The notes under the pieces were generated by a model that saw only the letters and a program-made list of their open reading frames with translations, had not been told where the DNA came from and ran no database searches. From Thauera carbonicopians (GTDB lineage: Bacteria > Pseudomonadota > Gammaproteobacteria > Burkholderiales > Rhodocyclaceae): DNA of 64,000 bases. Position 1 is the stretch's first letter, and each line of letters starts with the position of its first letter. Positions 5,758 through 52,203 of this stretch are shown in pieces. Position numbers and translations under genes: made by a program. The stretch spans positions 434,001 through 498,000 of the forward strand of contig NZ_JANUXN010000001.1 in NCBI RefSeq assembly GCF_025699485.1. Reading direction: 5' to 3'.

Positions 5758-7839
5758 ATGTACGCCCCGAAGAACGATCGCAGCTACCCCACCGACCATT
5801 TCATCAACCGCGAGCTGTCCCTGCTGCGGTTCCAGCGCCGCGTGCTCGCACAGGCCGCCGACCCGACGGTGCCGCTGCTCGAACGCCTGCGCTTCATGTG
5901 CATCGTGTCGAGCAACCTCGACGAGTTCTTCGAGATCCGCGTCTCCGGCATCAAGGAGCAGATCCACCTCGGCAGCCGCAAGACCGGCCACGACGGCATC
6001 TCGCCGCGCGACCTGCTCGAACGGGTCAGCGACGAGGTGCACGACATCATCTCGGACCAGTACGAACTGCTCAACGACGACATCCTTCCCGCGCTGGAAA
6101 AGGAAGGCGTGGTCTTCCTGCGCCGCAGCGAATGGACCGAAACCCAGTTGAAGTGGATTCGCGACTACTTCATGGACGAAGTGATGCCGGTGCTGACGCC
6201 GATCGGGCTCGATCCCGCGCACCCTTTCCCGCGCGTGCTGAACAAGAGCCTGAACTTCGCCGTCGAGCTGGAAGGGCGCGACGCCTTCGGCCGCGATTCC
6301 GGTGCCGCCATCGTCCAGGCGCCGCGTGCGCTGCCCCGCGTCATCCGGCTGCCGCGCGAGATCTGCGCCCAGGAATACACTTTCGTGTTCCTGTCCTCGG
6401 TGCTGCACTCGCATGTCGGCGAACTGTTCTCGGGCATGAACGTGCTCGGCTGCTACCAGTTCCGCGTCACGCGCAATTCGGACCTGTTCGTCGACGAGGA
6501 AGAGGTCAAGGACCTGCGGGTGTCGCTGAAGGGCGAACTGCAGCAGCGCCACTACGGCGACGCCGTGCGGCTGGAAGTCGCCGACAGCTGCTCGAAGGAG
6601 ATGGCCGCGTTCCTGCTGCAGCATTTCCATCTGGAGCCGGACGACCTCTACCGCACGCCGGGCATCGTCAACCTGGTGCGCCTGATGCAGGTGCCCGACT
6701 GGGTGGAGCGCCCCGACCTCAAGTACCCGCCCTTCGTGCCGGGCATCCCGAAACCGCTGGACAAGCGGCGGCAGATCTTCGCCGTGCTGCGCAATCACGA
6801 CGTGCTGCTGCACCACCCCTTCCAGAGCTTTGCGCCGGTCATCGACCTGCTGCGCGCGGCGGCGGACGACCCGCTGGTGCTCGCGATCAAGATGACGGTG
6901 TACCGCACCGGCACCGACTCGGTGCTGATGGAGCACTTGGTGCGCGCAGCGCAGAAAGGCAAGGAAGTGACCGTGGTGCTGGAACTGATGGCGCGCTTCG
7001 ACGAGGAGGCGAACATCAGCTGGGCCAACCGCCTGGAAGAAGTCGGCGCGCATGTGGTGTACGGCGTGTTCGGCTACAAGACCCACGCCAAGCTGCTGAT
7101 GGTGGTACGGCGCGAGGAAGACGGCCTGCGCCGCTACGTGCACCTGGGCACCGGCAACTACCATCCGCGCACCACGCGCTTCTACACCGACTTCGGCCTG
7201 CTGACCGCCAACGAGGAAATCGGCGAGGACGTCGCCACCGTGTTCAAGCAGTTGACCGGTCTGGGCACCGCCAGCGAACTGCGCCATCTGTGGCAGGCGC
7301 CGTTCACGCTGCAGCCCAAGGTCGTCGAGGCGATCAAGCGTGAGGCCGAGATCGCCCGCGAAGGCCGCCGCGGCCGCATCATCGCCAAGATGAACGCGCT
7401 GCTCGAACCGGAAACCATCGAGGCGCTGTACGAAGCCTCGCAGGCCGGCGTCGAGATCGATCTGATCGTGCGCGGCCCCTGCGCGCTCAAACCGGGCGTG
7501 TCCGGCCTGTCGGACAACATCCGGGTGCGCTCGGTCGTCGGCCGCTTCCTGGAGCACCACCGCATCTTCCATTTCCATGCCGACGGCGACGACCTGATGT
7601 TCCTGTCCAGCGCCGACTGGATGGAGCGCAACTTCTTCCGCCGCATCGAGATCGCCTTCCCGGTGCTCGATCCGAAGCTGAAGCGGCGCGTGATGAAGGA
7701 AGGCCTGCGCCCCTACCTCGGCGACAATTGCCAGGCCTGGGAAATGCATTCGGATGGCCGCTACCGCCGCCGGAATCCGCGCGGCACGCGTCGCGCCGCA
7801 CAGATGATCCTGCTGAAGGAGCTTGCCGCCAGCAGTTGA
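5758..7839 (+). CDS. ppk1: Polyphosphate kinase 1
   Basis: A 693-residue protein, the normal PPK1 length, made of N-terminal, head and two PLD-like catalytic domains. Evidence includes the N-terminal FINRELSLLRFQRRVLAQA, the segment SSNLDEFFEIRVSGIKEQ, the catalytic-histidine region KTHAKLLMVVRR and YVHLGTGNYHPRTTRFYTDF, and the C-terminal SSADWMERNFFRRIE. It forms long-chain polyphosphate reversibly from ATP, with autophosphorylation on a histidine. The ATG at 5758 is chosen because it gives the family N-terminus; the open frame extends upstream to 5575 through the Pho box. It is divergent to ppx and probably PhoB-regulated. Confidence 0.96.
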   Translation: MYAPKNDRSYPTDHFINRELSLLRFQRRVLAQAADPTVPLLERLRFMCIVSSNLDEFFEIRVSGIKEQIHLGSRKTGHDGISPRDLLERVSDEVHDIISDQYELLNDDILPALEKEGVVFLRRSEWTETQLKWIRDYFMDEVMPVLTPIGLDPAHPFPRVLNKSLNFAVELEGRDAFGRDSGAAIVQAPRALPRVIRLPREICAQEYTFVFLSSVLHSHVGELFSGMNVLGCYQFRVTRNSDLFVDEEEVKDLRVSLKGELQQRHYGDAVRLEVADSCSKEMAAFLLQHFHLEPDDLYRTPGIVNLVRLMQVPDWVERPDLKYPPFVPGIPKPLDKRRQIFAVLRNHDVLLHHPFQSFAPVIDLLRAAADDPLVLAIKMTVYRTGTDSVLMEHLVRAAQKGKEVTVVLELMARFDEEANISWANRLEEVGAHVVYGVFGYKTHAKLLMVVRREEDGLRRYVHLGTGNYHPRTTRFYTDFGLLTANEEIGEDVATVFKQLTGLGTASELRHLWQAPFTLQPKVVEAIKREAEIAREGRRGRIIAKMNALLEPETIEALYEASQAGVEIDLIVRGPCALKPGVSGLSDNIRVRSVVGRFLEHHRIFHFHADGDDLMFLSSADWMERNFFRRIEIAFPVLDPKLKRRVMKEGLRPYLGDNCQAWEMHSDGRYRRRNPRGTRRAAQMILLKELAASS

Positions 7840-7859
7840 GCAGGCGGCACGAAGGGTAT

Positions 7860-7879
7860 CGGGGGCTGCATCGCCCCCG
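7860..7879. terminator. Hairpin between convergent ppk1 and relA
   Basis: CGGGGGC-tgcatc-GCCCCCG forms a perfect 7-bp stem 20 bp after the ppk1 stop. There is no long T-run on either side. It sits where a bidirectional terminator would be expected. Confidence 0.55.
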
Positions 7880-7922
7880 TTCGCCCCACCGGCCCGGCTT
7901 CAATGCTTCCGGTAGCGGCGCA

Positions 7923-10127
7923 TCACTTGCGCTGCGCGTCGATCACGCCGGACACCTCGCGGATCAGCGTGATCGCACGCTGGACCTGCTTGATGCCGTT
8001 GACCTCCATCGTGAAGCGCATGTAGGCCGTGCCCTTCTTGGTCAGCGTATTCACCGCGATCACGTTCAGCTTCTCGCGCGACAGCACTTCGGAGATGTCG
8101 CGCAGCAGGCCCTGGCGGTCCATTGCCTGCACGGTGATGTCGACCTGGTACAGCGCCGTCTTGCTGTCGGTCGCCAAGCCGCCCCATTCCGCCGAGATCA
8201 CGCGCTCGGGATGCTTCTGCGCCAGCAGCTGGAAATCATGGCAATCGACCCGGTGAATCGAGATGCCGCGTCCGCGCGTGACGAAACCTTCGATCGCATC
8301 CGGCGGCGCCGGCTTGCAGCAGCGCGACAGCGAAGTCATCAGCTTGCCGACGCCGACGATCAGGATCTTGTCCGAGTTGTCGCCCGAGCGGCTGCGGCTG
8401 ACGACGAAATCCGGCTCGGCCGGCGCTTCCGGCGCTGGCGCGCTGCCTTCGCGCAGCGCCACCTGCACCGAACGCGGCCCCACTTCGCCACGGCCGGCGG
8501 CGAGGAAGAGCGCCTCGGCGTTCTTGAAGCCCATGCGTTCGGCGAGGCCGTCGAGATTGGCCTGGCTGTGGCCGTCGCGCTGCATCTCGCGCGCGACGAA
8601 GCTGCGGCCGCGCGCGAGCAGGTCTTCCTCGTCGAGCTGGGCGAAGTGCTGCTTGATCTTGTTGCGCGCGCGCGAAGTGTTGACGTAATGCTGGCGTGCA
8701 TCGAGCCAGTCGCGCGAAGGGCCACCCTCCTTGACCGTGACGATCTCGACCGTCTGGCCGTTTTCCAGCGGCGTGTTCAGCGGCATCAAATGGCCGTCGA
8801 TCTTGGCCCCGCGGCAGCGGTGGCCGAGGTCGGTGTGCAGGCGGTAGGCGAAATCGATCGGCGTCGCGCCGCGCGGCAAATCGACCACCTTGCCCTGCGG
8901 CGTCAGCACGTACAGCGTGTCGTCCAGCGAAACGCGCTTGAACTGCTCCATCCACTGCGCGGAGTCGGTGACTTCGTCGCGCCAGGACAGCAGGTTGCGC
9001 AGCAGCGCGATCTTTTCATCGTAGTCGGAGCCGGACTGCGAGCCTTCCTTGTAGCGCCAGTGCGCCGCCACGCCGAGTTCGGCGTGCCTGTGCATGTCGT
9101 AGGTGCGGATCTGCACCTCCAGCGCACGGCCGTCGCCCGCCAGCACCGCGGTATGCAGCGACTGGTAGTTGTTGCCCTTGGGCTTGGTGATGTAGTCGTC
9201 GAACTCCTTGGCGATCGGCTGCCAGATCTGATGCACGAAGCCGAGCACCGTGTAGCAGTCCTTGACCTCGTCGACCAGCACGCGCAGTGCGCGGATGTCG
9301 AACACCTGCGAGAAGTCGAGCCGTTTCTTGCGCATCTTGTTGTAGATGCTGTAGATGTGCTTGGCCCGGCCGGTGATCTCGGCCTTGATGCCGACCGCCG
9401 CCAGTTCGGCCCTGAGGCGCTCGATCGCGTCCTGGATGAACTGCTCGCGCTCCACCCGGCGCTCGTCGAGCATCTTGGCGATGCGCTTGTAGGTTTCCGG
9501 CTCGATGAAGCGGAAGGAAAGGTCCTCCAGCTCCCACTTGAGCTGCCAGATGCCCAGCCGGTTGGCCAGCGGCGCATAGATGTCCAGGCTCTCGCGCGCC
9601 ACATCCACCCGCGCGTCGCCCGGCAGGTCGGTGTAGAAGCGCAGCGTCTGCGTGCGCGACGCCAGCCGCACCAGCACCACGCGGATGTCCTCGACCATCG
9701 CCAGCAGCATCTTGCGCAGCACTTCGGTCTGGGCGCGGATCTCGGGCGCGGTGGCGGTGGTCGTCATGCGCGTCAGCACGCGCAGGCCGTTCAGCTTGTG
9801 CAGGCCGCGCACCAGATGGCAGATGTCGGCATCGAAGCGCGACTCGATCTCTTCGGCCGGATCGTCCACTTCGTCCCACACCGCGAACAGCAGCGCGGCG
9901 ATGCGCGTGTCCGCGTCCAGCCTCAGCGACGCCGCGATCAGCGCGGTGCCGATCGCATGGGTCCAGGCCGGCTCGCCGGTGCCGAGCACCTTGCCTTCGT
10001 ACAGCTCGGAGATCCATTCGAGCGCGGATTCGATCCTGTCGCGTTCTTCGGCCGTCAGGCCGGCAGCGAGCATGTCGACCGGGGGGGCGGTGTCGCCCTG
10101 GGAGATGGCGTGAGTGACGGAAACCAT
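7923..10127 (-). CDS. relA: GTP pyrophosphokinase RelA (ppGpp synthetase)
   Basis: A 734-residue long RSH protein. The N-terminal hydrolase region is degenerate: where active hydrolases have HD followed by an ED motif, this protein has AALLFAVWDEVDDPAEE. The synthetase domain is intact, with the EFDDYITKPKGNNYQSLHTA motif; EFDDY is the acidic ExDD type that marks RelA rather than bifunctional SpoT (RxKD). EVQIRTYDMHRHAELG follows. A TGS domain (TPQGKVVDLPRGATPIDFAY) and a C-terminal ACT domain (VDITVQAMDRQGLLRDISEV) complete the ribosome-linked regulatory half. It makes (p)ppGpp during amino-acid starvation. The start MVSVTHAISQ is the only upstream ATG in this frame. It converges on ppk1. 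Confidence 0.94.
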   Translation of the reverse strand: MVSVTHAISQGDTAPPVDMLAAGLTAEERDRIESALEWISELYEGKVLGTGEPAWTHAIGTALIAASLRLDADTRIAALLFAVWDEVDDPAEEIESRFDADICHLVRGLHKLNGLRVLTRMTTTATAPEIRAQTEVLRKMLLAMVEDIRVVLVRLASRTQTLRFYTDLPGDARVDVARESLDIYAPLANRLGIWQLKWELEDLSFRFIEPETYKRIAKMLDERRVEREQFIQDAIERLRAELAAVGIKAEITGRAKHIYSIYNKMRKKRLDFSQVFDIRALRVLVDEVKDCYTVLGFVHQIWQPIAKEFDDYITKPKGNNYQSLHTAVLAGDGRALEVQIRTYDMHRHAELGVAAHWRYKEGSQSGSDYDEKIALLRNLLSWRDEVTDSAQWMEQFKRVSLDDTLYVLTPQGKVVDLPRGATPIDFAYRLHTDLGHRCRGAKIDGHLMPLNTPLENGQTVEIVTVKEGGPSRDWLDARQHYVNTSRARNKIKQHFAQLDEEDLLARGRSFVAREMQRDGHSQANLDGLAERMGFKNAEALFLAAGRGEVGPRSVQVALREGSAPAPEAPAEPDFVVSRSRSGDNSDKILIVGVGKLMTSLSRCCKPAPPDAIEGFVTRGRGISIHRVDCHDFQLLAQKHPERVISAEWGGLATDSKTALYQVDITVQAMDRQGLLRDISEVLSREKLNVIAVNTLTKKGTAYMRFTMEVNGIKQVQRAITLIREVSGVIDAQRK

Positions 10128-10337
10128 GGCGGCTGATTATCCCATACCGGCGGGCTTTTCGAACCTGTCGTCAGGCCGCGGGAAATGTATGGAAATGCGG
10201 CATGCCGGTGCAGGCGGATCGGGCCGGCGGCGGGCATGCGCTTCGCAGCGGCATCCGTGCTGTGCGATCATCCCCGGCCTGCGGCGCGCGCCACGATCGA
10301 GTGCCGCCCCCCGAAACGACTCTAGGCCGAAGCACCG

Positions 10338-11231
10338 ATGCAGCGTCTCAACGCCAATCCCTACCTCCTGCTCACGCTCACCGCCCTGTTCTGGTCGGGC
10401 AACATGGTGATGGGCCGTGGCATCCGCGCCGACGTGCCGCCGCTCGCGCTCGCCTTCTGGCGCTGGGTGATCGCCCTCGCCCTGGTCGCGCCGTTCGCGC
10501 TGCCGCACCTGCGCGGGCAATGGGACAAGCTGCGCGCGGCCTGGCCGATCGTCGTCGTGCTCGGCCTGCTGAGTGTCGGCGGCTACAACACGTTTGCCTA
10601 TCTCGCCCTGCAGCACACCACCGCGACCAGCGCCACGCTGCTGAACTCCTTCATCCCGATCGTCACCATCGCCTTCGGTTTCCTGTTCTTCGGCAGGCGC
10701 CTGAGCCGTGCCGAGGCGGTCGGCGTGGCGGTGTCGCTGCTCGGCGTGGCCGCGATCGTCAGCCGCGGCAGCCTGGAAACCCTGCTCGGGCTCAGCCTCA
10801 ACACCGGCGACCTGTGGATGCTGGCTTCGGTGACGGTGTGGGGGTTGTACACCGTCGGCCTGCAGAAGCGCCCTGCCGGCGTCGATCCGATGCTGATGCT
10901 GGCCGCCTTCACCGTGGTCGGCCTGCTCGCGCTGGCGCCGGCCTACGCCTGGGAGCTGTCCGAAGGCCGGCACATCAACCTCAACCCGGCATCGCTCGGC
11001 GGCATCCTCTACACCGGCATCTTCCCCGGCTTTCTCGGCTACGTGTTCTACAACGCCGGCGTCGCCGCAGTGGGGCCGGCGCGCGGTTCGCTGTTCATCC
11101 ACCTGATGCCGGTGTTCGCAACCATCCTGGCGGCGATCTTCCTCGGCGAGCGGCCGCAGTGGTACCACTTCGTCGGCATCGCGCTGGTATTCGCCGGCAT
11201 TTTCCTGACCACGCGCAAACCCTCGAGCTGA
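10338..11231 (+). CDS. EamA/DMT family inner-membrane transporter
   Basis: A 297-residue protein with about ten hydrophobic segments in two homologous halves, the usual 5+5 EamA layout. The start MQRLNANPYLLLTLTALFWS matches the family, with LFWSGNMVMGR in the first helix and the LGERPQWYHFVGIALVFAGI ending of the second repeat. Members are metabolite or amino-acid exporters such as RhaT-, YddG- and PecM-type proteins; the substrate is unknown. mtfA follows after 4 bp on the same strand and then the flavodoxin-like gene, so the three look like one operon. Confidence 0.88.
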   Translation: MQRLNANPYLLLTLTALFWSGNMVMGRGIRADVPPLALAFWRWVIALALVAPFALPHLRGQWDKLRAAWPIVVVLGLLSVGGYNTFAYLALQHTTATSATLLNSFIPIVTIAFGFLFFGRRLSRAEAVGVAVSLLGVAAIVSRGSLETLLGLSLNTGDLWMLASVTVWGLYTVGLQKRPAGVDPMLMLAAFTVVGLLALAPAYAWELSEGRHINLNPASLGGILYTGIFPGFLGYVFYNAGVAAVGPARGSLFIHLMPVFATILAAIFLGERPQWYHFVGIALVFAGIFLTTRKPSS

Positions 11232-11235
11232 TCCC

Positions 11236-12033
11236 ATGTTCGAACGCATCCGCCGCTGGCTCGGTCTGGCCACCCCGCCGACTTCGGTTCCCGACAGCCA
11301 GTGGGAGCGAGTCGAGGCCTGGCTGCCCTTCCTCGATTACCTCGACCCGGACGACCGGCCTCGCCTGCGCCGGATGGCGCTGGAGTTTCTCGCCGGCAAG
11401 CAGTTCCACGGCGCCAACGGGCTCGAGCTGGACGACGACATCCTGCTCTGCATCGCGCTGCAGGCCTGCCTGCCGGTACTGAACATCGGCCTGCAGGCCT
11501 ACCACGACTGGGTCGGCGTGATCGTCTATCCGGGCGATTTCCTCATTCCCCGGCGCGAGTACGACGAGGCCGGCGTGCTGCACGAATACGAGGACGAGGT
11601 GCTGGGCGAAGCCTGGGAAGGCGGACCTGTGCTGCTGTCCTGGTTCGGCGGCGAAGGGCAGCCGGCAGGCGTCAATGTCGTGATCCACGAGTTCGCCCAC
11701 AAGCTCGACATGGAGAACGGCGGCGTCGACGGCCTGCCGCGGCTGCGCTCCGACATGTCCCGCCGGGCCTGGGCAGCCGCCTTCAGCCAGGCATACGAGG
11801 AATTCTGCGGCGAAGTGGACAGCGGCATGGAAACCGACATCGACCCCTATGGTGCGGAGCATCCGGGCGAGTTCTTCGCCGTCGTTTCCGAAGTGTTCTT
11901 CGAAGCGCCCCATGTGCTGCAGCGGCGCTTTCCGCAGGTGTATGCTCAACTCGCCCTGTTCTATGGCGTCGACCCCGCCCAGCGGGAAGCCCTGTTGAGA
12001 GGACGCGGATGGCACCAGCCAAGCGCCTGCTGA
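11236..12033 (+). CDS. mtfA: MtfA-like zinc-dependent peptidase (M90)
   Basis: A 265-residue protein with the zinc-peptidase motif HEFAHKLD at 151-158 inside VNVVIHEFAHKLDMENGG. This is the signature of MtfA, which in E. coli is an aminopeptidase that binds the glucose repressor Mlc. Further family traits are the segment VIVYPGDFLIPRREYDEAGV and the downstream acidic HPGEFFAVVSEVFFEAP, which carries the third zinc ligand. It is soluble with no signal peptide. It begins 4 bp after the EamA gene and overlaps the next gene by 25 bp, implying translational coupling. Whether an Mlc partner exists here cannot be seen. Confidence 0.9.
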   Translation: MFERIRRWLGLATPPTSVPDSQWERVEAWLPFLDYLDPDDRPRLRRMALEFLAGKQFHGANGLELDDDILLCIALQACLPVLNIGLQAYHDWVGVIVYPGDFLIPRREYDEAGVLHEYEDEVLGEAWEGGPVLLSWFGGEGQPAGVNVVIHEFAHKLDMENGGVDGLPRLRSDMSRRAWAAAFSQAYEEFCGEVDSGMETDIDPYGAEHPGEFFAVVSEVFFEAPHVLQRRFPQVYAQLALFYGVDPAQREALLRGRGWHQPSAC

Positions 12034-12473
12034 TCGTGCATCACACCCAGTCGGGCAACACCGGCATGCTGGCCGAAGCGGTGTTGCGCGGCGCCGGGCG
12101 CGTCGATGGCGTCGACACCCGGCTGATGCGCGCCTTCGACGCCGGCACCGGCGATCTGCTGGCCTGCGACGGCCTGCTGCTCGGCACGCCCGAGAACTTC
12201 GGTACCATGTCCGGCGCGCTGAAGGATTTCTTCGACCGTACCTACTACCCCTGCGAAGGCAAGCTCGTCGGCCTGCCCTACGCCGTCTTCGTCAGCGCCG
12301 GCAACGACGGCACCGGCGCGGTGCGCGAGATCGGACGCATCGCCAACGGCTACGGCTGGAAACAGATCGCCGAGGCGTTGATTGCACGCAAGGAGATCAC
12401 CGCCGGGCATCTGGATGCCGCCGAAGAGCTCGGCGAAGCGATGGCATCCGGGCTGGCGATGGGAATTTTCTAG
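12009..12473 (+). CDS. Flavodoxin-family / NADPH-dependent FMN reductase-like protein
   Basis: A 154-residue protein starting MAPAKRLLIVHHTQSGNTGM. HTQSGNTGMLAEAV (about 12-25) is the FMN-phosphate loop typical of flavodoxins, followed by DGLLLGTPENFGTMSGALKD, the second flavin-contact loop of the WrbA/flavodoxin-like group. It is shorter than WrbA and is probably a small FMN-binding oxidoreductase or electron carrier; the partner is unknown. The start overlaps the 3' end of mtfA by 25 bp in another frame, suggesting translational coupling in a three-gene operon with EamA and MtfA. Confidence 0.85.
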   Translation: MAPAKRLLIVHHTQSGNTGMLAEAVLRGAGRVDGVDTRLMRAFDAGTGDLLACDGLLLGTPENFGTMSGALKDFFDRTYYPCEGKLVGLPYAVFVSAGNDGTGAVREIGRIANGYGWKQIAEALIARKEITAGHLDAAEELGEAMASGLAMGIF

Positions 12474-42935: not shown

Positions 42936-43359
42936 GTTTGCTTCTCCGTTGCGCCGATAGAACTGTATTTTTATAAAATATAAATCTGTGTAATGGAGAT
43001 AGAAAATAAGTGAATACCCTAACGAACGGTGCGCAAAACAGGAAAACATCGCCTCACTTCGCGCCTGACAGGCATCTCGGAGGCATCTCCGTAGCCAGGA
43101 AATCCGCTAATTTATTTCTATTCACTAAAACAATACTGAATTTTCCGATGGAACAGGACATCCTTAGCACGAGCTGTGCCAGGCCTTGAATCGGCTTGAA
43201 AACCCCGTTTTCAGGGGTCGGGGCCCTGGTTCGCCAGGTGACCGATGCACCTGAGAGGTGAGTTGCAGCTCGACCGTGCCTGCTCATGGTGCAAAGGCAA
43301 GATTTATTTATTTTTATGCAATAAGATACGCACCAAGAAAGAACGCCCGATCCGAGCCC
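42936..43359. other. 424-bp divergent control region, AT-rich; no gene seen
   Basis: This gap lies between the crotonase and IclR genes. Both flanks are far more AT-rich than the rest of the window, with AGATTTAT occurring before each gene (minus strand near 42985, plus strand near 43301). These could be IclR sites or promoters. The middle holds a hairpin CCTGG-ttcg-CCAGG (43225-43238), a CACCT-gag-AGGTG inverted repeat (43248-43260), and two close copies of AGGCATCTC near 43070. I see no coding sequence with good start and codon use. Confidence 0.6.
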
Positions 43360-44205
43360 ATGCCAAGAAAGCCTTCCTCCCCTCCCCCCACGCTCTTCGA
43401 CCCTGCCGCCGGCGCCGAGGAAAAGCGCAGCAAGAGCGGCGACCCGCGGTCGTCGCCGCTCTTCGTAAACTCGGTGGAGAAAGCCTTCCAGATCCTGGCC
43501 GTCTTCGGCCCCAGCCGCAGGCAGCTCACGCTCACCCAGATCGTCGCGCAGTCGGGCATGGACATGAGCTCGGTCCAGCGCTTCACGCACACGCTGGTCA
43601 CGCTCAACCTGCTCAGAAAGGATCCCCGCAGCAAGTCGTACGAACTGTCGCCCGGCATCCTGAGAATGGCGCACCAGTACATATCGTCGAACGACCTGGT
43701 CAGCCGGGCCATGCCCTACCTCCAGCACCTGGCCATGGAAACCGAGGCGGCGGTCAACCTGACCATCCTGGACGGCACCGACATCGTCTATCTGCAGCGC
43801 ATCGTGAGCCGCTACGTGCTGTCGCCGGAAATCATCATGGGCACGCGCCTGCCCGCCTACTGCACCTCGTCGGGCCTGGCCATGCTGGCCGCGCTTCCCC
43901 GTCACGAGGCCGAGGCCATCCTGGACCGCTCCCAGCTCATCAAGTACACCCGCCACACGGTCAATGACCGCGAGCAGATCCTGGCCCGGCTCGACACCAT
44001 CCGCGACCTGGGCTATTCCCACGTGGAAGACGAGATGTACCTCGGCGACATCGCGCTGGGCGTCGCCATCACCGATTCGAGCAACAAGGTCGTCGGCGCG
44101 ATCAACATCGGCATCGCCCGCCCGCAATGGAAGGGCGAGGAAGACAAGGAGAACATGCTGTCGCTGCTGATCGCGGCAGGACGCGCGATTTCCAGCCGGG
44201 GATGA
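43360..44205 (+). CDS. IclR-family transcriptional regulator
   Basis: A 281-residue protein from ATG 43360. The winged helix begins at NSVEKAFQILAVFGPSRRQL and TLTQIVAQSGMDMSSVQRF is its recognition part. The ligand-binding domain follows, with HLAMETEAAVNLTILDG, the active-pocket region MGTRLPAYCTSSGLAMLAAL and VEDEMYLGDIALGVAITD near the end. Upstream residues to 43258 look non-native. It stands divergent to the crotonase, importer and CoA ligase operon. IclR proteins usually control aromatic-acid or carboxylic-acid catabolism, which fits the neighbours. The inducer is likely the imported acid or its CoA ester. Confidence 0.9.
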   Translation: MPRKPSSPPPTLFDPAAGAEEKRSKSGDPRSSPLFVNSVEKAFQILAVFGPSRRQLTLTQIVAQSGMDMSSVQRFTHTLVTLNLLRKDPRSKSYELSPGILRMAHQYISSNDLVSRAMPYLQHLAMETEAAVNLTILDGTDIVYLQRIVSRYVLSPEIIMGTRLPAYCTSSGLAMLAALPRHEAEAILDRSQLIKYTRHTVNDREQILARLDTIRDLGYSHVEDEMYLGDIALGVAITDSSNKVVGAINIGIARPQWKGEEDKENMLSLLIAAGRAISSRG

Positions 44206-44278: not shown

Positions 44279-45760
44279 TCAGAAGTTGTGTCGCAGCATC
44301 AGGCTGGCTTCGGTCTGGCGGAAACCGAAGGCCCAGTCCAGGTTGCTGCGGTTGATGCTGTGGCGCAGCCGCAGCTCGGGCACCAGCCCGGCGACCTTCC
44401 AGCCGTTGGCGCCCAAGCTGACGATGTAGACCTGCTGCTTGTCGTACCGCCGCTCGCCGAGAAAGCCGTCGAAGGCGTCGTTGCGCAGCGCGCGGTAGAT
44501 GCCCAGCACGTTCATGAACAGGCCCGCCTCGCCGGCAAACTGGTGGTAGATGCCGGCGCGCAGCGCCCAGTCCTTGCTGCTGGCCTGCGCCACCTCGTAT
44601 TTCTTTCGTGTCAGGTCCAGCCCGCCATAGAGCGCAGTCGCCGGCTGCGGCGAAAAGCTCGCGCTCACACCCCACTGGTACTGCTTGTAGTCCGCGCCGG
44701 CCAGTTGTCCTCGCGACGTGTACTCGTAGCGCTTGGCATCCAGGCTGGTGCCCACCTGCCATCGCGGGCTCAGCGCATGGCGCCACTCCAGTTGCAGGCC
44801 GTGCGCCAGATATTCACCATGGCGGTTGCGGTAGTAGTGCTCCAGGTAAGGCGTCAGCGTGACGTTGTCGCGCGCGTCCAGATACTGGTAGCCCGCCTGC
44901 AGGATCGCCAGGTTGGTGCTGTAGTCCTCGATCCTGGCCGTGTCCGAAGGATTGGCGCGCGAGTAGTAGTTGCCATAGCTGAGCGGACGCACATGCAGAT
45001 TGTGATTGCCCCGCAGGTTGAAGCGGCGCTGCATGGACAGCTCGTAATTCACCATCTGCGAACCGATGGCCTCCGGCATCACCCGCTCGAAGGCGCAGAC
45101 GTTCCATATCGGAATGTAGCTTTCGCAGCTTCGGTGGCCGTTGGCCTGGTTGATGTTGTCGTTGTAGCCCCAGCCCACTGCTGCGGTGCCATGCCAGCCG
45201 GCGCGGATGTCCAGGGCCTGATGGTATTGCTGCACCATCGCCTGAGCATCGGGCGGCAGACCGGCTTCGAGCGCGCGGGCAAAGCCTGCCTGCGCCCGCT
45301 TGTCCTGATTGTCCTCGAACCACAGCCGCGCCAGTTCGAGGCGGATGCGGGCATCGTCGGGCTCCAGCGCGCTGGAGTCCTGCATGCGGCGCACCGCCGT
45401 CGGATAATCGCCCCGGAAGCGCGCCAGCAGGCTGTCGGCCATCGCCACCAGGGCCGGGCGGTGCCCGCGCAGCAGGCGGTAGCGGGAGATGAAATCCGGC
45501 AGATGCGACCATTGCCCGGTGTTGATGGCCACGTAGATGGCCGGCTCCAGTTCTTCCAGCGTATTGCCGACTTCGTACACCTTGCCCTCGTACAGCAGCG
45601 AGCCCGGCGGCGCGGCCAGCGCCTCCTCGGCCTGCGACTGCTGCCCCGCAGCGCGCTGGGTCTGCTCGAGCAGAAAGCGGGTATCGTCGTCATCCGCCCA
45701 GGCGGGCAGCACGAAAGCGGCCGCCAGGGCGAACCCCAGGGCCTTGAAGCGATGGAACAT
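44279..45760 (-). CDS. slam: Surface lipoprotein assembly modifier (Slam), DUF560 family
   Basis: A 493-residue outer-membrane protein with a signal peptide (MFHRFKALGFALAAAFVLPA). The first half (about 60-190) has TPR-like helices (ALVAMADSLLARFRGDYPTA, LARLWFEDNQDKRAQAGFAR). The second half is a beta-barrel rich in alternating aromatic residues, ending SLMLRHNF with the terminal Phe of outer-membrane barrels. This domain order and length match Slam, which moves TbpB-like proteins across the outer membrane. It lies directly downstream of a gene for a TbpB-barrel protein, as Slam genes usually do. The neighbour is its predicted client. Confidence 0.85.
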   Translation of the reverse strand: MFHRFKALGFALAAAFVLPAWADDDDTRFLLEQTQRAAGQQSQAEEALAAPPGSLLYEGKVYEVGNTLEELEPAIYVAINTGQWSHLPDFISRYRLLRGHRPALVAMADSLLARFRGDYPTAVRRMQDSSALEPDDARIRLELARLWFEDNQDKRAQAGFARALEAGLPPDAQAMVQQYHQALDIRAGWHGTAAVGWGYNDNINQANGHRSCESYIPIWNVCAFERVMPEAIGSQMVNYELSMQRRFNLRGNHNLHVRPLSYGNYYSRANPSDTARIEDYSTNLAILQAGYQYLDARDNVTLTPYLEHYYRNRHGEYLAHGLQLEWRHALSPRWQVGTSLDAKRYEYTSRGQLAGADYKQYQWGVSASFSPQPATALYGGLDLTRKKYEVAQASSKDWALRAGIYHQFAGEAGLFMNVLGIYRALRNDAFDGFLGERRYDKQQVYIVSLGANGWKVAGLVPELRLRHSINRSNLDWAFGFRQTEASLMLRHNF

Positions 45761-45798
45761 CGGAATTTCCCTGACAGGAGGATGGTTGGGAAATAGAA

Positions 45799-45823
45799 TC
45801 GAGGCCGGCGGGGCCGGCCTCGA
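45799..45823 (-). terminator. Strong hairpin terminator between the client gene and slam
   Basis: TCGAGGCCGG-CCCCG-CCGGCCTCGA (minus strand) is a perfect 10-bp stem followed by TTCTATTT. It lies after the client gene stop (45857) and before the slam ATG (45760). Read-through would be partial, giving more client than Slam. Confidence 0.75.
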
Positions 45824-45856
45824 CTTGCTTACATCACTTTCCTAGTGGCGCACGCC

Positions 45857-46741
45857 TCACCGTCTGCCACCGAAAGCGACGTTGCCGCCGGCTCCGCCAC
45901 CCGTGTAGATGCCGGCCAGGGCATTGGCGTTGTTGTAGAAGCGGCCCTGGATGGTGCTGCCGTTGCTGAACGTGCCGGCGGCAGCAATGCTGGTGCCGGC
46001 GAAGTTCACGCTGTCGCTGCCACGCACAATGGAACCGGTGATCGTGCCGCTACCGCCAGCATAGTTCGCCACCAGCGCGCCGGTGTACAGCGCAGGCGCA
46101 TACGGCTGGTTGCCAGCGCTGGTGCCCACGCCGCGGATGCCCACCACGTTGTAGGTCACATTGGCCAGCGTCGGCATGCTGGTCGTCGGGTTGTCGCCCA
46201 CGTACCAGACCGTGCGGCCGCTGCTGCCCATGTTCAGGTCGGTGCTGGGCGCAGGCAGCGCGCCGCCGGTACGCGCCGGCGACCATTCGCCGAAATATAC
46301 GCCGTTGGTGTCGCCGGTGCCGGCCACACGCCCGATCACCAGGCCGCCGAAATGCGGCCAATTGGCTGCCGTCGGATAGCTCAGTTGGCGCAGGCTGAAG
46401 GTTTCCGCCGTCGCGTTGTAGCTGGTGTTGGTACGCCACACTTGCGCGATGTTGGGCATCAGGATCGGAATGCCGGCAATGTAGGTGCCGTTGGTATTGG
46501 CCGTGGCTGCGCCGATGGCGAGATTCACGGGCGCGCGCAGCGGGATGGTCTTGGACAGAACACCATCATTGCGCTTCATGGCGAGGCCGGCGTAGCCATT
46601 GGGTGCAATCGGCAGGTTGGGAAAGTCCGAGGTCCCGGGTTGGACATTGCCTGGAGTCGATGAACCGCCTGCGGGGGCGGCCCAAGCGGCCGACGTACCA
46701 ATCACGGCCAGGACGGCTGCGGCAATCATTTGCTTTTTCAT
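45857..46741 (-). CDS. Secreted TbpB-barrel/hemophilin-like protein, predicted Slam client
   Basis: A 294-residue exported protein. The signal peptide MKKQMIAAAVLAVIGTSAAW ends at an AWA site, then APAGGSSTPGNVQPGT. There is no lipobox cysteine and no Cys anywhere in the mature chain, so it is probably released rather than anchored. The C-terminal half reads like a TbpB-type eight-stranded barrel: GSGTITGSIVRGSDSVNFAG, IQGRFYNNANALAGIYTGG and the ending NVAFGGRR. Only one histidine (His130, in ANWPHFGG) is present. Hemophilin and HphA are Slam-secreted haem carriers of this kind, but haem binding is not shown here. The slam gene follows; the receptor gene precedes. Confidence 0.8.
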   Translation of the reverse strand: MKKQMIAAAVLAVIGTSAAWAAPAGGSSTPGNVQPGTSDFPNLPIAPNGYAGLAMKRNDGVLSKTIPLRAPVNLAIGAATANTNGTYIAGIPILMPNIAQVWRTNTSYNATAETFSLRQLSYPTAANWPHFGGLVIGRVAGTGDTNGVYFGEWSPARTGGALPAPSTDLNMGSSGRTVWYVGDNPTTSMPTLANVTYNVVGIRGVGTSAGNQPYAPALYTGALVANYAGGSGTITGSIVRGSDSVNFAGTSIAAAGTFSNGSTIQGRFYNNANALAGIYTGGGAGGNVAFGGRR

Positions 46742-46826
46742 CGAGAAAAGTCCTTGTAGGTTGGTTGACGAACACACTGGTTTTTCCAGAAAAACCAGCA
46801 AAAAGCCTTCAAATCCGGTCGAAGTG

Positions 46827-49800
46827 TCAGAAGCGCACATTCAGGTCGAGCATGGCGGTGCGGCCGGGCGCTGGCGCAGTCAGGCGGGTCAGCGGGTCCA
46901 TGTAGTAACGGTTGGTCAGATTGTCGACCGACAGGCGCACGGTGGCGTCGCGGGTGATGCGGTATTCGGCATACAGGTCGAGCAGCGTGACCGGATCCCA
47001 GAAATAGGGGCGGTTGTTGCCATTCAGGCCGACGATGGGGTAGTCGTAGCCATGGGCGCTGAAGCCGCCGCTCTGGTGCCGGGCCAGCATTCGATCCATG
47101 GAATCGTTTTCGGCCTTGCTGTGGTGGCGAACGCGCATGCCGAGGTCCAGCTTGTGCTCCAGCAGACGCGTGCCGAGGTCGAGGTTCACCGAATACTTGG
47201 GTTGCAGCGTCGAGTAGCTCAGGGTGCCGATCAAGCCGCCGTCCATGCACTCGGGCACGCGGTTGTAGTGCGGGTCGAGCTGGACGGCATAGTCCTTGTC
47301 GCACATCTCCTGCTTGAGGCGGTAGGTTGCGCCCAGGTTGCCGTAGAAACGTCCGGTGTCGAAACGACCCTGCAGTTCGATGCCGCTGCTGATCTTGCGG
47401 TCGAACTGAATGGTGGTCAGCGCGATGCTGCGGTCGTAGTAGTCGTGGATGGTGTTGCGGTACCAGGCCAGCTTCACGTCGGCGCGCTGCAAGTCGAACA
47501 GCAGGCCGCTCAGATCGTGGTGGTAGCCGATCTCCCAGGCCTTGTTGCGCTCCGGCCGCAGCTTCATGTCGGCGAATTCCATGTCGCCGAAACCCAGCCG
47601 GTTGGCGGTTTCGAGCAGGCTGGCGAAACGCGCCATGCTGGCATAGCGGACGTAGACGCGGGAACGCTCGGTCAGCAGGTAGGAGGCCGCCAGTTGCGTG
47701 CTCCAGGCCGTGGCTTTCTGCGTTTCCGGGCGCTTCCAGGGATCGGTATCGCTCTTGTAGGCGTAGGAGTCCTGAACGTTACTAATAGCTATGTATTTTT
47801 TATAGATGCCGGGAACGATAATGGCGGAGGAATCACTCCCTTCCATTCCCGTGGGGTTGGTGACGGTTTCCTTTATGTCGATGCTGCCGTTGTGGAACGG
47901 GTTCTGGCTGCGGTCGGCCTTGCCGTTGTTCAGTGGGATGGGGGTATTGATGCCTGCGTACAGGAGGCCGTTATTGTTCCCGTCGTTGTCGGCGCCCCAC
48001 TGTATAGCTCCGGTCATGTTGTTGGCGGCCTTGTAGGCTTCCCATTCCTCATACCTGCCAACGTCGGAGTACATCGCCAACTCGTCAGCGTTCATCAAGC
48101 GCATCATCTGCGGATTTTGCGCTACCGCTTCGTTGCGCACGCGCCATTCTTCGGTTTTGGCGGCGCGCTGCCTGGCGGTTTCGTCGTCGAAGCCCCAGTA
48201 GCCGCCGTAGCGTACGCCGGCACTCAGTTGCAGACGGTCGGTAGCCTGCCATTCCAGGTTGCTGCTGACGCCGTATTCGCTGCGCCGGCCCGAGGCCGGC
48301 CCGTAGGCCTGGGCCAGCGAGCCGTTGAGGATGACGGCCACGTCCTTCACCGGCTTGTTGTCGCGCACTTCCTCATACTGGTAGTCGATGGCGGTGGTCA
48401 GGCTCAGGCGCTCGCTCAGGCGGAAGCGGTTGCTGAGGTCGAAGCCGGTGCGCACCGCGTGGCTGTCGATGCGGTTGCCGATCTTCAGGTTGTAGCGGCC
48501 GTCGGTGTTGGGTTGGCGCTCGGGGGCCGGCCCTCCGGGGGAAATGCCGGGGCAGTACATCTCGTAATACCAGGGCATGCTCTCCCTGACTTCCAGCAGG
48601 CTCTGGTCGTAGTTGCATTGCACGTGCTGGTCCCAGGCCATGTCGCGATCAGTCACGCCGTAGGCGTAGTCGCCGGTCTGGTAGCGGCTGCTCCTGCTGT
48701 CGGTGCGCCACAGGTTGGCTTCGAGGTCGAGCAGGCGCGAGCCCGCAGGCTTGAGTTCGTAGCCGAGACGCCAGATGTCCTGTTTGACCGTGGTGTCGGG
48801 GTTGGGGTATTCGAGGTGAGTGTTGGCGCCGTCGATGCCCCGCCAGTCGTCACCGGCGGCTTGGTTAACGAAATAGTCCACCACGGGCACCGGCAGTTCG
48901 CCGAACTGAAGCTTGTTGCGGGTGTAGCCGAAGCTCAGCTTCTGGTCCTGGTCGATTTTCCAATTCGACTTCAGCAGATAGCTTTCGGTATGGCTGCTGG
49001 TATAGGGCACTTCGTAGCCGGCGGGGAAAACCTTGCCGATGTCCGGATACATGTTGCGGGTGTTGTGCACGCCAAGCTGGTCGCGCGCGGTGTTGTCGAT
49101 GTACTTGTCCGCGCCTTTTTTGCCGGCGTAGTAGTTGCCGCGTTTCTGGTCGCTGTAGGCGGCCATGACGTCGAACGCTTCGTGTTGGTAGCCGCCAGCC
49201 AGGAAAACGTTGTAGGCATCGCCGTTGAAGCTGGAGCCGCCTTTTTCGCGCGGCCGCGTCGGCGACCGATAAAACCCCACGCCCGGCGTGCCGAACAGGG
49301 TACTACCGCTTGCCGCGCCTTCGATGTCGCGGTAATCCCGGCCTTCGTAGCTGTGTGCATTGAACGATGGCTCGCGCGAGTTGTTGGCGGTGCCGGCCTT
49401 GATTTCCAGCCCCCAGCTCTTGCCGGGTTCGATGATGTCCGTCGCATCGATGGTGCGGATGTTGACCGAGCCACCGACGCCGCTCTTGATGCCGCGCGTC
49501 ATCGACGGCCCTTTCTCGACCTCGATGCTGCGGAACAGGTTGGGGTCGACGTAGCTGCGGTTGCTGATGCCATGCACCGCCTGCCACACATCCAGCGTCT
49601 GCACCGTGCCATCCACCGTGATCGGAATGCGGCCGTTGCCCGAAAAGCCGCGGATGATTGGCGACAGCGCCGAGCCGTTGCGGTTGTCGATGTTGTACAC
49701 GCCGTTGGTACCCGCGAACACGTCGCCGGTGGACACGCCCTTGTAGCGGTCCATGTACTTGCGGTCGACGTACAGGTTGGAGATGTCCTTCTCATACACG

Positions 49801-50297
49801 TTGTCATGCCCCACCTCGTCCTTGGTCCGTTCGCCCGTCACCAGAACGCTTTTCATCTCGGTCGCATTGCGGGCGGGGTCGTCTTCACCGGCAATGTCGG
49901 GCAGCAGCGGGCGCAGCATGTAGCGGTTCGCTCCGGTGGCGACGGCCTGCAGGCCGCTGCCGGCAAGCAACTGGCGGAAGCCCTCGCCCACTGCATGGCT
50001 GCCCTGCACGCCGCTGGAATGCCGCCCCTGCAGCGCCTGGGCATCGAAGGACAACAGCACGCCCGCCTCGCGCGCGAAGCGGTTGAGCACCTCGGCGAGC
50101 GGCCCGGGGCCGATGTCGTAGCTGCGCACACCCTGTTGCTGAGTCGTGCCGGCGGTTTGCGCCTGGCTGGACTCCGGGGCCAGGAAGGCCGCCAGGATGC
50201 ACAGCAGCGTGGCATTGAGGCGGAGGTTTCGCCGTCCATGGCTGGAGAAGCGGCGGGACGAAGGGTGGTGTTTGCGGACTTGGGCGACTCCGGGCAT
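46827..50297 (-). CDS. TonB-dependent receptor with STN signalling domain
   Basis: A 1156-residue outer-membrane receptor, larger than usual. The export signal region spans about residues 24-47. An STN domain follows (RSYDIGPGPLAEVLNRFARE to SGLQAVATGANRYML, about 57-125). The plug domain has GSALSPIIRGFSGNGRIPIT and NLFRSIEVEKGPSMTRGIKS. The barrel ends MLDLNVRF with the C-terminal Phe. The STN domain binds the FecR periplasmic part, as in FecA. Its ligand is probably whatever the downstream TbpB-barrel protein carries. It lies between fecR and the client gene on one strand, with a Fur-like site upstream. Confidence 0.93.
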   Translation of the reverse strand: MPGVAQVRKHHPSSRRFSSHGRRNLRLNATLLCILAAFLAPESSQAQTAGTTQQQGVRSYDIGPGPLAEVLNRFAREAGVLLSFDAQALQGRHSSGVQGSHAVGEGFRQLLAGSGLQAVATGANRYMLRPLLPDIAGEDDPARNATEMKSVLVTGERTKDEVGHDNVYEKDISNLYVDRKYMDRYKGVSTGDVFAGTNGVYNIDNRNGSALSPIIRGFSGNGRIPITVDGTVQTLDVWQAVHGISNRSYVDPNLFRSIEVEKGPSMTRGIKSGVGGSVNIRTIDATDIIEPGKSWGLEIKAGTANNSREPSFNAHSYEGRDYRDIEGAASGSTLFGTPGVGFYRSPTRPREKGGSSFNGDAYNVFLAGGYQHEAFDVMAAYSDQKRGNYYAGKKGADKYIDNTARDQLGVHNTRNMYPDIGKVFPAGYEVPYTSSHTESYLLKSNWKIDQDQKLSFGYTRNKLQFGELPVPVVDYFVNQAAGDDWRGIDGANTHLEYPNPDTTVKQDIWRLGYELKPAGSRLLDLEANLWRTDSRSSRYQTGDYAYGVTDRDMAWDQHVQCNYDQSLLEVRESMPWYYEMYCPGISPGGPAPERQPNTDGRYNLKIGNRIDSHAVRTGFDLSNRFRLSERLSLTTAIDYQYEEVRDNKPVKDVAVILNGSLAQAYGPASGRRSEYGVSSNLEWQATDRLQLSAGVRYGGYWGFDDETARQRAAKTEEWRVRNEAVAQNPQMMRLMNADELAMYSDVGRYEEWEAYKAANNMTGAIQWGADNDGNNNGLLYAGINTPIPLNNGKADRSQNPFHNGSIDIKETVTNPTGMEGSDSSAIIVPGIYKKYIAISNVQDSYAYKSDTDPWKRPETQKATAWSTQLAASYLLTERSRVYVRYASMARFASLLETANRLGFGDMEFADMKLRPERNKAWEIGYHHDLSGLLFDLQRADVKLAWYRNTIHDYYDRSIALTTIQFDRKISSGIELQGRFDTGRFYGNLGATYRLKQEMCDKDYAVQLDPHYNRVPECMDGGLIGTLSYSTLQPKYSVNLDLGTRLLEHKLDLGMRVRHHSKAENDSMDRMLARHQSGGFSAHGYDYPIVGLNGNNRPYFWDPVTLLDLYAEYRITRDATVRLSVDNLTNRYYMDPLTRLTAPAPGRTAMLDLNVRF

Positions 50298-50325
50298 CTC
50301 GATTCCAGTGAATGAGTGAAGTTAA

Positions 50326-50340
50326 TGAGAACTATTACAA
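50326..50340. promoter_or_regulatory. Fur-box-like site upstream of the STN receptor
   Basis: TGAGAAC-T-ATTACAA resembles the 7-1-7 Fur motif (TGATAAT-N-ATTATCA) in 10 of 14 arm positions. It lies about 29 bp before the receptor ATG, in a 194-bp gap that also holds an inverted repeat TGCAC-cgaaa-GTGCA (50359-50373). It is weaker than the site before fecI. Confidence 0.45.
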
Positions 50341-50491
50341 CTGAAAGGACACGCGAGCTGCACCGAAAGTGCACCCGAAGGCATCGATGATTCGAGCGGA
50401 ATTTTCTACGGCCCGGCGACGGTGCCGGGATGAGACCGCGAACCCGGCCGGCCTGCGCTGCAAAATGGTCCGGGAGACCTGCGCAGTTGCG

Positions 50492-51466
50492 TCAGGGTTT
50501 TGAAGCGGGCAGCACGGTTGCGTAATAGCGCGTGAAGCTTCGCACCCGGACGGGGAAGGCATCGGCCAGCATGGCGAGCGCCTCGTCGGTGTCGTCCAGC
50601 GGGAACACGCCGGATACGCGCAGCGGGGCAAGTCCGGAATCGAAGCCCAGGTAGCCCTTGCGGTGGCGCGAGAGTTCGGCAATGAAGTCCGGCAGCGGCA
50701 TGTTCACGACACTGAGCCGCCCCTCCCGCCAGTCGCCCGCCCCTGCCGGCTGCATGTGCGGTGCGCCGGCACTGTGGCTGTCGAAGACGATCTCCTGCCC
50801 TTCGGACAGGCGGACGGGCTGCGCCATCGACAGCAGTGGACGCACTTCGACCGCGTCCTGCAGCACCTGCACGCTGGAATGGTCGCCATGCAGCCTGACC
50901 ACGAAGCGCGTGCCCAGGGCCCGCACCCTGCCATGCGGGGTATGCACGACGAAGGGGCGCGCGGCGCCGGGGAGCTTGTCGGGCCGCGTCTCGACGAGGA
51001 TTTCGCCCGCACGCAACAGGATGCCGCGCTCGCTGGGGCCGAAGGCCAGGTCCACGGCGCTGCCGGTGTTCAGGTACAGCAGCGAGCCGTCGGCCAGCAC
51101 GTGCCGGCTGCGCTCGCCGGTGCCGGTGCGCAGGCCGGCATGCAGCTCGGGCGAGGACAACTGGCGCCAGGTCCCGGCGCCCGCCAGTCCGGCACAAACC
51201 AGCACCACCGCGCTGCGCAGCACCGCGCGCCGCGAAGTCTTTTGCGCCAGCACCGGCGAGGCAAGCCTGCCCGGGACCTTGTCGAACAGGCTGCGGACCT
51301 CCTGGATCCGCGCCCATGCCTGGCGGTTGGACGGACAGGCGTCGAGCCAGCCCTGCCAGCGGCGGCGATCCTGTTCGGTGGCGTCTTCCGCCTGCAGGCA
51401 GGCATACCAGAAGGCGGCTTCTTCGATGGAGCTGGAGGACTTATTCACACCCTGCCCCGCTTTCAC
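50492..51466 (-). CDS. fecR: FecR-type anti-sigma regulator
   Basis: A 324-residue protein. The cytoplasmic part (about 1-78) contains SSSSIEEAAFWYACLQAEDA and RRWQGWLDACPSNRQAWARI, the usual FecR N-terminal pattern. One membrane helix lies at about 79-100 (RRAVLRSAVVLVCAGLAG). The periplasmic FecR domain follows: GERSRHVLADGSLLYLNTGS, then VHTPHGRVRALGTRFVV. It ends with an STN-like C-terminal region (VSGVFPLDDTDEALAMLADA) that meets the receptor. It should hold FecI inactive until the receptor signals. It lies 40 bp after fecI and 194 bp before the receptor. Confidence 0.92.
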   Translation of the reverse strand: MKAGQGVNKSSSSIEEAAFWYACLQAEDATEQDRRRWQGWLDACPSNRQAWARIQEVRSLFDKVPGRLASPVLAQKTSRRAVLRSAVVLVCAGLAGAGTWRQLSSPELHAGLRTGTGERSRHVLADGSLLYLNTGSAVDLAFGPSERGILLRAGEILVETRPDKLPGAARPFVVHTPHGRVRALGTRFVVRLHGDHSSVQVLQDAVEVRPLLSMAQPVRLSEGQEIVFDSHSAGAPHMQPAGAGDWREGRLSVVNMPLPDFIAELSRHRKGYLGFDSGLAPLRVSGVFPLDDTDEALAMLADAFPVRVRSFTRYYATVLPASKP

Positions 51467-51505
51467 GCCGGCATGCGGGAGCGCTGCGCGAGATGGCTTT
51501 GGTAT

Positions 51506-52021
51506 TCAAGGCATCATCTCGCAGCAATGCACCATCGCGCGCGCCACGTAGTTCTTGACGGTGCGCAGCGACACGCCGAGGCGTTCGGCGATCTGCGCAT
51601 ACGGCATTTCCTCGAACTGGGCGAGCAGGAAGGCCTGCTTGACCTTGATGCCCAGGCCATCGAGCATCTGGTCGATTTCCAGCAGCGCTTCCTTCATCAG
51701 CGCCTGGGTTTCGAGCGAAGGGATTTCGTCCTGCGGCAGCGTCGCCAGCACTTCGAGATAAGCGCGTTCGATCGACTGGCGGCGGTAGAAGTTGGCCATC
51801 AGCCGTCCGGCGACGGTGGCGAGGTAGGCCCGTGGTTCGCGCAGCGCCATCTGCACATTGGCATGTGCGCACAGCACGCGGATGAAAGTGTCCTGGGCCA
51901 GGTCGTCGGCATCGGCCTTGTTGCCCATCCTGGCGCGCAGCCACGCACTCAGCCAGCGATGATTGTCGTGGTAGAGCGTTGCGACATCCTGCGCGGGCGC
52001 GCCAGCCTCGGTCATACCCAT
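51506..52021 (-). CDS. fecI: FecI-family ECF sigma factor
   Basis: A 171-residue sigma factor with region 2 (DADDLAQDTFIRVLCAHANV, YLATVAGRLMANFYRRQSIE) and region 4 (LEIDQMLDGLGIKVKQAFLL, IAERLGVSLRTVKNYVARAM). The HTH lies in region 4.2. Iron-starvation sigma factors of this group are released by FecR when the STN receptor binds its ligand. It is the first gene of the sigma, anti-sigma, receptor, client, slam series. A Fur box 27 bp upstream implies expression only in low iron. Confidence 0.93.
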   Translation of the reverse strand: MGMTEAGAPAQDVATLYHDNHRWLSAWLRARMGNKADADDLAQDTFIRVLCAHANVQMALREPRAYLATVAGRLMANFYRRQSIERAYLEVLATLPQDEIPSLETQALMKEALLEIDQMLDGLGIKVKQAFLLAQFEEMPYAQIAERLGVSLRTVKNYVARAMVHCCEMMP

Positions 52022-52047
52022 GATAGGACTGTATCAGGCCATCAAGA

Positions 52048-52062
52048 TGATAACGCTTCTCA
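52048..52062. promoter_or_regulatory. Fur box upstream of fecI
   Basis: On the minus strand TGAGAAG-C-GTTATCA matches the 7-1-7 Fur motif in 11 of 14 arm positions. It is 27 bp before the fecI ATG and within an AT-rich stretch that could hold the promoter. Iron repression of the whole locus is likely. Confidence 0.65.
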
Positions 52063-52203
52063 TTATATATCCACTTGCCGCCGCCGGCTCCTGTTTTCTT
52101 TGGCTGGAAGCCCGCCGGCAGTGTTGCAAGGATCGTACAGCAGCCACATCCGGGAGTTAGAATTTGTGGTTTTCCGTCCCAGCCGTACACCGGAGTCTCA
52201 GCA

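Follow-up and report, generated by a model that had tools for sequence, protein, structure and literature searches.

The window analysed here, 64,000 nucleotides of Thauera carbonicopians (GCF_025699485.1, NZ_JANUXN010000001.1 positions 434,001-498,000), carries at 44279..52062 a five-gene locus that likely serves to capture and import a nutrient in the manner of Acinetobacter hph (hemO), coupled with cell-surface signalling of the Fec type. Genes for a FecI-type sigma factor, a FecR-type regulator, an STN-bearing TonB-dependent receptor, a putatively secreted client and the exporter Slam stand in this order; the receptor, client and Slam genes are homologous to hphR, hphA and hsmA, and a strong Fur-like site precedes fecI. 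Support for the assignment comes from family matches for all five proteins, from the same gene order in Acinetobacter, Novosphingobium and the genome of a relative (G954), from the co-upregulation of a comparable cluster in Lysobacter, and from the Fur-like site.

Family assignments of the five proteins

The original prediction, made from the sequence alone, had placed all five parts on one strand, and each was recovered as an open reading frame (ORF) on the minus strand with a family match.

52021-51506, minus strand: fecI-type extracytoplasmic function (ECF) sigma factor, 171 amino acids (Pfam, NCBIfam)
51466-50492, minus strand: fecR-type sigma regulator, 324 amino acids, with FecR and DUF4880 domains (Pfam, NCBIfam)
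50297-46827, minus strand: TonB-dependent receptor, 1156 amino acids, with STN at residues 82-130 (about 49908-50054) (Pfam)
46741-45857, minus strand: Slam-dependent client, hemophilin-family carrier, 294 amino acids (NCBIfam, PDB matches, profile comparison)
45760-44279, minus strand: Slam / DUF560 (type XI secretion system, T11SS), predicted outer-membrane exporter, 493 amino acids (Pfam)

Hidden Markov model searches for Slam, STN and FecR all scored over the Pfam cut-offs. The Slam protein matches SlipAM with 118.2 bits (cut 22; 6.6e-34) over model positions 1-286 of 288, and its N-terminal TPR region matches TPR_Slam with 56 bits (cut 35.2; 5.7e-15). The receptor has Pfam matches to the barrel (85.7 bits), Plug (42.4) and STN (34.1, cut 28.4). 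For the fecR product, the Pfam FecR score is 65.6 bits (cut 24) and the NCBIfam FecR equivalog score is 264.3, under the cut of 385. The fecI product matches Pfam sigma-70 r2 (48.9 bits) and r4_2 (63.2 bits); it scores 193.8 bits with NCBIfam FecI, under the equivalog cut of 260, and 189.7 with the PRK12528 subfamily, over the cut of 184. An adjacent FecI-type sigma factor, FecR-domain regulator and STN receptor together make up a Fec-type cell-surface signalling gene set. On the 3' side of Slam, the next likely gene is an ORF at 43258-44205 on the opposite strand.

Under the proposed mechanism, low iron would lift Fur repression, and Slam, by homology, would export the client across the outer membrane. 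The client would then take up an iron-containing cargo and hand it over to the 1156-amino-acid TonB receptor, whose STN domain, once the receptor is loaded, would act on FecR and so free FecI. With FecI free, the genes for receptor, client and Slam would be transcribed more strongly. We infer the signalling step from the protein families, and this logic of a Slam-exported carrier coupled to an STN receptor that could signal via FecR and FecI, which the original prediction had put forward, is backed both by the family matches and by the homology to Acinetobacter hph.

Gene order in Acinetobacter and other bacteria

In the following, C-labels (C2, C6, C33) denote contigs of the window genome, G-labels the genomes of relatives and L-labels fetched loci. 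The hemO cluster of A. baumannii encodes an ECF sigma factor, an anti-sigma factor, hphR, hphA, hsmA, a TonB-related protein and a heme oxygenase (PMC10483418), and Slam-dependent secretion of HphA, heme capture by HphA and growth via HphR have been shown experimentally in this species (PMC8560813). Among 22 Acinetobacter loci, which were retrieved with the HphA piece from the PDB as query, 20 have homologous proteins in the order FecI-FecR-receptor-client-Slam. The exceptions are L102, where the contig starts 100 bases before the receptor, and L103, where FecI and FecR lie downstream and inverted. Receptors of the Acinetobacter loci match a receptor of the window genome (that of the window or of C6) at 1e-150 or better. 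In an annotated A. baumannii locus (L104) the five genes are arranged as in the window, TonB and heme oxygenase come after them, and the receptor matches Pfam STN with 35.8 bits.

The order seen in the window also occurs on two Novosphingobium plasmids and in G954 (L072), where two adjacent clients (8536-10115) lie between the STN receptor and a single Slam. A Pseudoalteromonas plasmid has the same parts, with FecI and FecR placed after Slam.

The client belongs to the hemophilin family

The window client has a signal-peptide-like start, a single histidine (residue 130) and zero cysteines within its first 45 residues, and the lack of a cysteine there makes secretion in soluble form more probable than a lipoprotein. 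It passes the NCBIfam slam_lipo model NF041636 marginally (80.2 bits, cut 80), and all 13 window-type clients match slam_lipo at E 0.001. With Pfam, none of its matches was over the cut-off (TbpB_B_D E 0.24; HphA_C E 0.55). Its top PDB matches, both at about 1e-7, are 9us7 ('transferrin-binding protein-like solute binding protein') and 7re4 ('hemophilin'), and a profile-profile comparison of the 13 window-type with 10 HphA-type clients gave 99.9% probability. HphA_N was matched at E 0.1 by 10/10 HphA-type and by 6/13 window-type clients (best 6e-6). A C-terminal barrel of eight strands is the fold expected of slam_lipo clients. AlphaFold models of the client had a mean predicted local distance difference test (pLDDT) score of 47.5 with 13 sequences and 44.9 with 15 sequences, which is low confidence; a PDB fold search with the 13-sequence model returned zero matches at E 0.001, and its weak fold matches included a meningococcal vaccine-candidate protein (prob 0.87) and, at prob 0.41, a complex of TbpA, TbpB and transferrin. 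No relatives of the client were found in the viral contigs searched.

Heme is held in HphA by H43 and H106, and binding is lost when both are mutated (PMC8560813). We compared these positions across the two client types (13 window-type, 10 HphA-type), which were aligned with MAFFT in three modes. The first ligand histidine is present in 10/10 HphA-type and, in all three modes, in 0/13 window-type clients; the C2b client has a histidine a few residues before this position. The second ligand histidine is kept by nine of the ten HphA-type clients. A histidine two columns away from it occurs in five window-type clients (window, C6, G557 and both G496 clients), and the other 8/13 have Q, E, K or N at the ligand position. 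In the window this residue is His130, which sits in the motif WPHFGG, and its offset of two columns from the second HphA ligand is within alignment error. The clients of G562 and G585C2, both of which share 57% identity with the window client, have no histidine near the second position. Judging from the HphA_N matches and the alignments, the N-domain is probably homologous to that of HphA, with the ligands changed. The label 'hemophilin-like' in the original prediction therefore holds for the protein family and does not extend to the heme ligands.

Six clients were excluded from the client sets (A2 and A3), namely L050, L073 and L075; L062 and C33, these two being of a more distant client type; and L053, which is partial. 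L050, L073 and L075 match neither set cleanly; they retain a histidine in the second region and have none clearly aligned in the first. Set A3 includes five clients out of the 22 Acinetobacter loci plus L104.

Distribution of the module and of its signalling part

Five SlipAM genes, all of them close to a receptor, were found in the window genome: that of the window, those of two neighbouring loci on contig C2 (C2a and C2b), that of C33, and that of C6, which is without STN, FecI and FecR. Within the fetched part of contig C2 (L041, 1-19000), C2b is intact; C2a consists of a client remnant between two hairpins and a Slam frame interrupted by a stop, and looks like a decaying copy. The locus on contig C33 (L039, 1712-8738) has the order FecI-FecR-STN receptor-client-Slam, with a distinct shorter receptor (901 amino acids) and a client split over two frames.

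To survey such modules, we counted loci with a receptor, a client (or pieces of one) and a Slam (n=22), using phmmer at 1e-3 and a custom-built model for STN, and omitting Acinetobacter and C2a. FecI, FecR and STN occur together in 8/22 modules (window, C2b, C33, G585C5, G954, two Novosphingobium and Pseudoalteromonas), STN only in two (G562 and G496) and FecI only in two (G207C10 and G267). Nine have no STN, FecI or FecR (C6, G557, G585C2, G207C15, G202, G223, G262b, G830 and gonococcus), and one lies at a contig end, so that its signalling genes are not scorable (G348b). The system is patchy among relatives and its signalling part is not constant. The census leaves out loci with a receptor and no client and Slam match (L043, L044, L046, L048, L051, L052, L054, L055), loci with a Slam and no receptor match (L060, L065-L071, L074, L076-L078), the cut second module of L064 and an E. 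coli plasmid without a client match (L108). The E. coli plasmid carries Slam, receptor and TonB, and Slam matches also occur in 25 Klebsiella plasmid records.

Partial signalling sets take two forms. STN receptors of the window clade in L064 (G496) and L061 (G562) have no adjoining FecI or FecR match, and in L075 (G207) and L053 (G267) a FecI-like gene stands before a receptor that lacks STN, with no FecR match, which is an unusual partial set. In a sample of the window's family, 63/297 genomes have a SlipAM match; among the 11 same-genus genomes listed besides G000, two do, namely G557 and, with weak or interrupted matches, G580. In a tree of 31 receptors, the window was firmly joined with G496 alone. 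Neither the wider clade around the window (94/100) nor that of the HphR type (92/98) was starred, and gains and losses of signalling genes were for this reason left uncounted.

The gonococcal module (L109, an N. gonorrhoeae record, 5893-12280) has the order receptor-client-Slam, and its 1142-amino-acid receptor is 35.9% identical to that of the window. Unlike the window, its receptor is without STN and there is no adjoining FecI or FecR match. By its size (128.7 kDa computed, against 136 kDa in a review), the receptor may be TdfG, whose ligand is described as not known (PMC9519893). A full-text search that combined TdfG with Slam returned no paper from the collection searched.

Fur-like sites, hairpins and transcript layout

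Four further features lie outside the five genes.

52049..52067: Fur-box-like site before fecI, 15/19 to a 19-nt consensus
50321..50339: weak Fur-box-like site before the receptor, 13/19, in the 194-nt gap between fecR and the receptor
46777..46798: inverted repeat with 10-nt arms between receptor and client (hairpin scan)
45799..45823: strong G+C hairpin in the client-Slam gap, with 11-nt arms and a T-rich stretch behind it (gap fold z -4.4)

The scan for Fur boxes used a 19-nt consensus, with 20 simulated 64-kb sequences as background. It found the Fur box that had been predicted before fecI as a candidate, the sole site in the window scoring >13; the simulated sequences had zero sites at >=14. 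At 13/19 there are five sites in the window (three of them near 38-39 kb, inside an ORF) against 0.8 expected from the simulations, and because there are five, the site before the receptor is not significant alone. Whether the locus is the single operon of the original prediction or is transcribed as two units, with fecIR controlled by Fur and receptor-client-Slam by a promoter of its own in the 194-nt gap, appears to us evenly balanced. The gap holds the weak Fur-like site, and relative G496, whose STN receptor has no neighbouring fecIR match, has a comparable site at near-equal distance before its receptor gene; the lack of significance of the window site counts on the other side. A layout in two units would be compatible with heme and non-heme cargo alike.

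A hairpin resembling that between receptor and client is present in G496, G562, G585C2, C2a and C2b. Client-Slam gaps have a stem of >=6 pairs in 18/20 cases and a fold z <= -2 in 17/20, counts made without control gaps, with the wrong gap taken for G585C2, whose hairpin came up in another scan, and with some gaps including Slam-frame bases. The client-Slam hairpin, which was not listed by a simple terminator scan, may act in attenuation and lower Slam expression relative to the client. In Acinetobacter the hairpin of this gap has a sequence unlike that of the window, and hairpin sequence varies among lineages.

Cargo of the client

Heme, or else a different compound of iron, is the probable cargo, and we put the share of heme at slightly under one half. 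If heme is the cargo, the client would be a true hemophore, with His130 among its heme-binding residues, and would supply the receptor with heme in the way HphA supplies HphR, an account favoured by its homology to HphA, by the position of His130 near the second HphA ligand and by the HphA_N matches of 6/13 window-type clients. The score of the window receptor with the heme-receptor model TIGR01785 (213 bits; cut 316.85) is also close to that of A. baumannii HphR (207.6). The gonococcal receptor scores 213.1, and as all three score alike, we rejected this score as evidence for heme. We looked for a receptor histidine signature that would separate HphR-type from window-type receptors as a heme ligand and found none.

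Several results weigh against a system of the Acinetobacter kind or against heme as its cargo. HphA_N, which A. baumannii HphA matches with 59.6 bits (cut 22), is not matched by the window client at E 0.1, the first ligand histidine is missing from every window-type client, and the nearby second histidine is found in five of the 13 and is absent from G562 and G585C2. The client models are of low confidence. The Acinetobacter cluster has TonB and heme oxygenase downstream, unlike the window, and the window genome has zero matches to heme oxygenase PF01126, HemS PF05171, ChuX PF06228 and DUF2470 PF10615 (other heme routes were not searched). Lastly, pairing of the module with signalling genes is not obligatory, since 9/22 modules are without STN, FecI and FecR.

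The changed ligands and the four unmatched heme-use families speak for the alternative that the window's branch has moved to another iron-bearing or metal cargo while retaining the export barrel and the receptor architecture, which we consider slightly less likely than heme. The Fur-like site before fecI fits this account, as does the presence among the relatives of the gonococcal receptor-client-Slam locus, with a receptor that is possibly TdfG, for which no ligand is known (PMC9519893). On the other side, no result points to a particular alternative cargo, the TdfG assignment is a guess from size, and residues other than the two histidines may hold heme, just as families outside the four searched may degrade it. 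A broader version, in which the carrier of the whole branch, represented by relatives from the window's own order and by the gonococcal locus, gave up heme for another cargo and the FecI/FecR/STN sensor was added or lost in some members, seems rather unlikely. If true, it would turn the sensor-bearing members into reporters with which the branch-wide ligand could be found, also for a receptor without a known ligand. Because the carrier sits with a transcriptional sensor, a reporter screen could find the cargo.

Comparison with known systems

The original prediction was not aware of a described system that unites all five parts, least of all in bacteria that are not host-adapted. The genus Lysobacter lives in soil. 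In Lysobacter sp. 3655, orf4990-4994 encode, when compared by description, the same parts as the window, namely a sigma factor, FecR, a TonB transporter, a Slam-dependent lipoprotein and Slam; the five genes are upregulated together, deletion mutants are described, and the authors interpret the cluster as a transferrin receptor (PMC11233812). This cluster and the A. baumannii hemO cluster (PMC10483418) place the five-gene arrangement in print, a case that the original prediction had itself named as refuting, and we rejected the view of the arrangement as undescribed. The words FecI, FecR and sigma factor are absent from the main text of two T11SS surveys (PMC12282271 and PMC8406197).

The neisserial TbpAB, LbpAB and HpuAB systems are like the window in combining a TonB receptor with a Slam-exported partner. 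The Has system (HasA/HasR/HasI/HasS) likewise has a secreted carrier, an STN receptor, an ECF sigma factor with its anti-sigma factor and dedicated export, but relies on type I secretion and an unrelated carrier. Acinetobacter hemO/hph has the five genes in identical order, with homologous STN receptor, Slam and client. Its HphA, unlike the window client, keeps both heme histidines and the HphA_N match, and its HphR is about 100 amino acids shorter than the window receptor. The window is a further example of the published five-gene arrangement, and its value lies in the contrast between the same exporter, receptor and signalling parts and a carrier without a conserved heme ligand, which suggests that Slam-exported carriers may have changed cargo.

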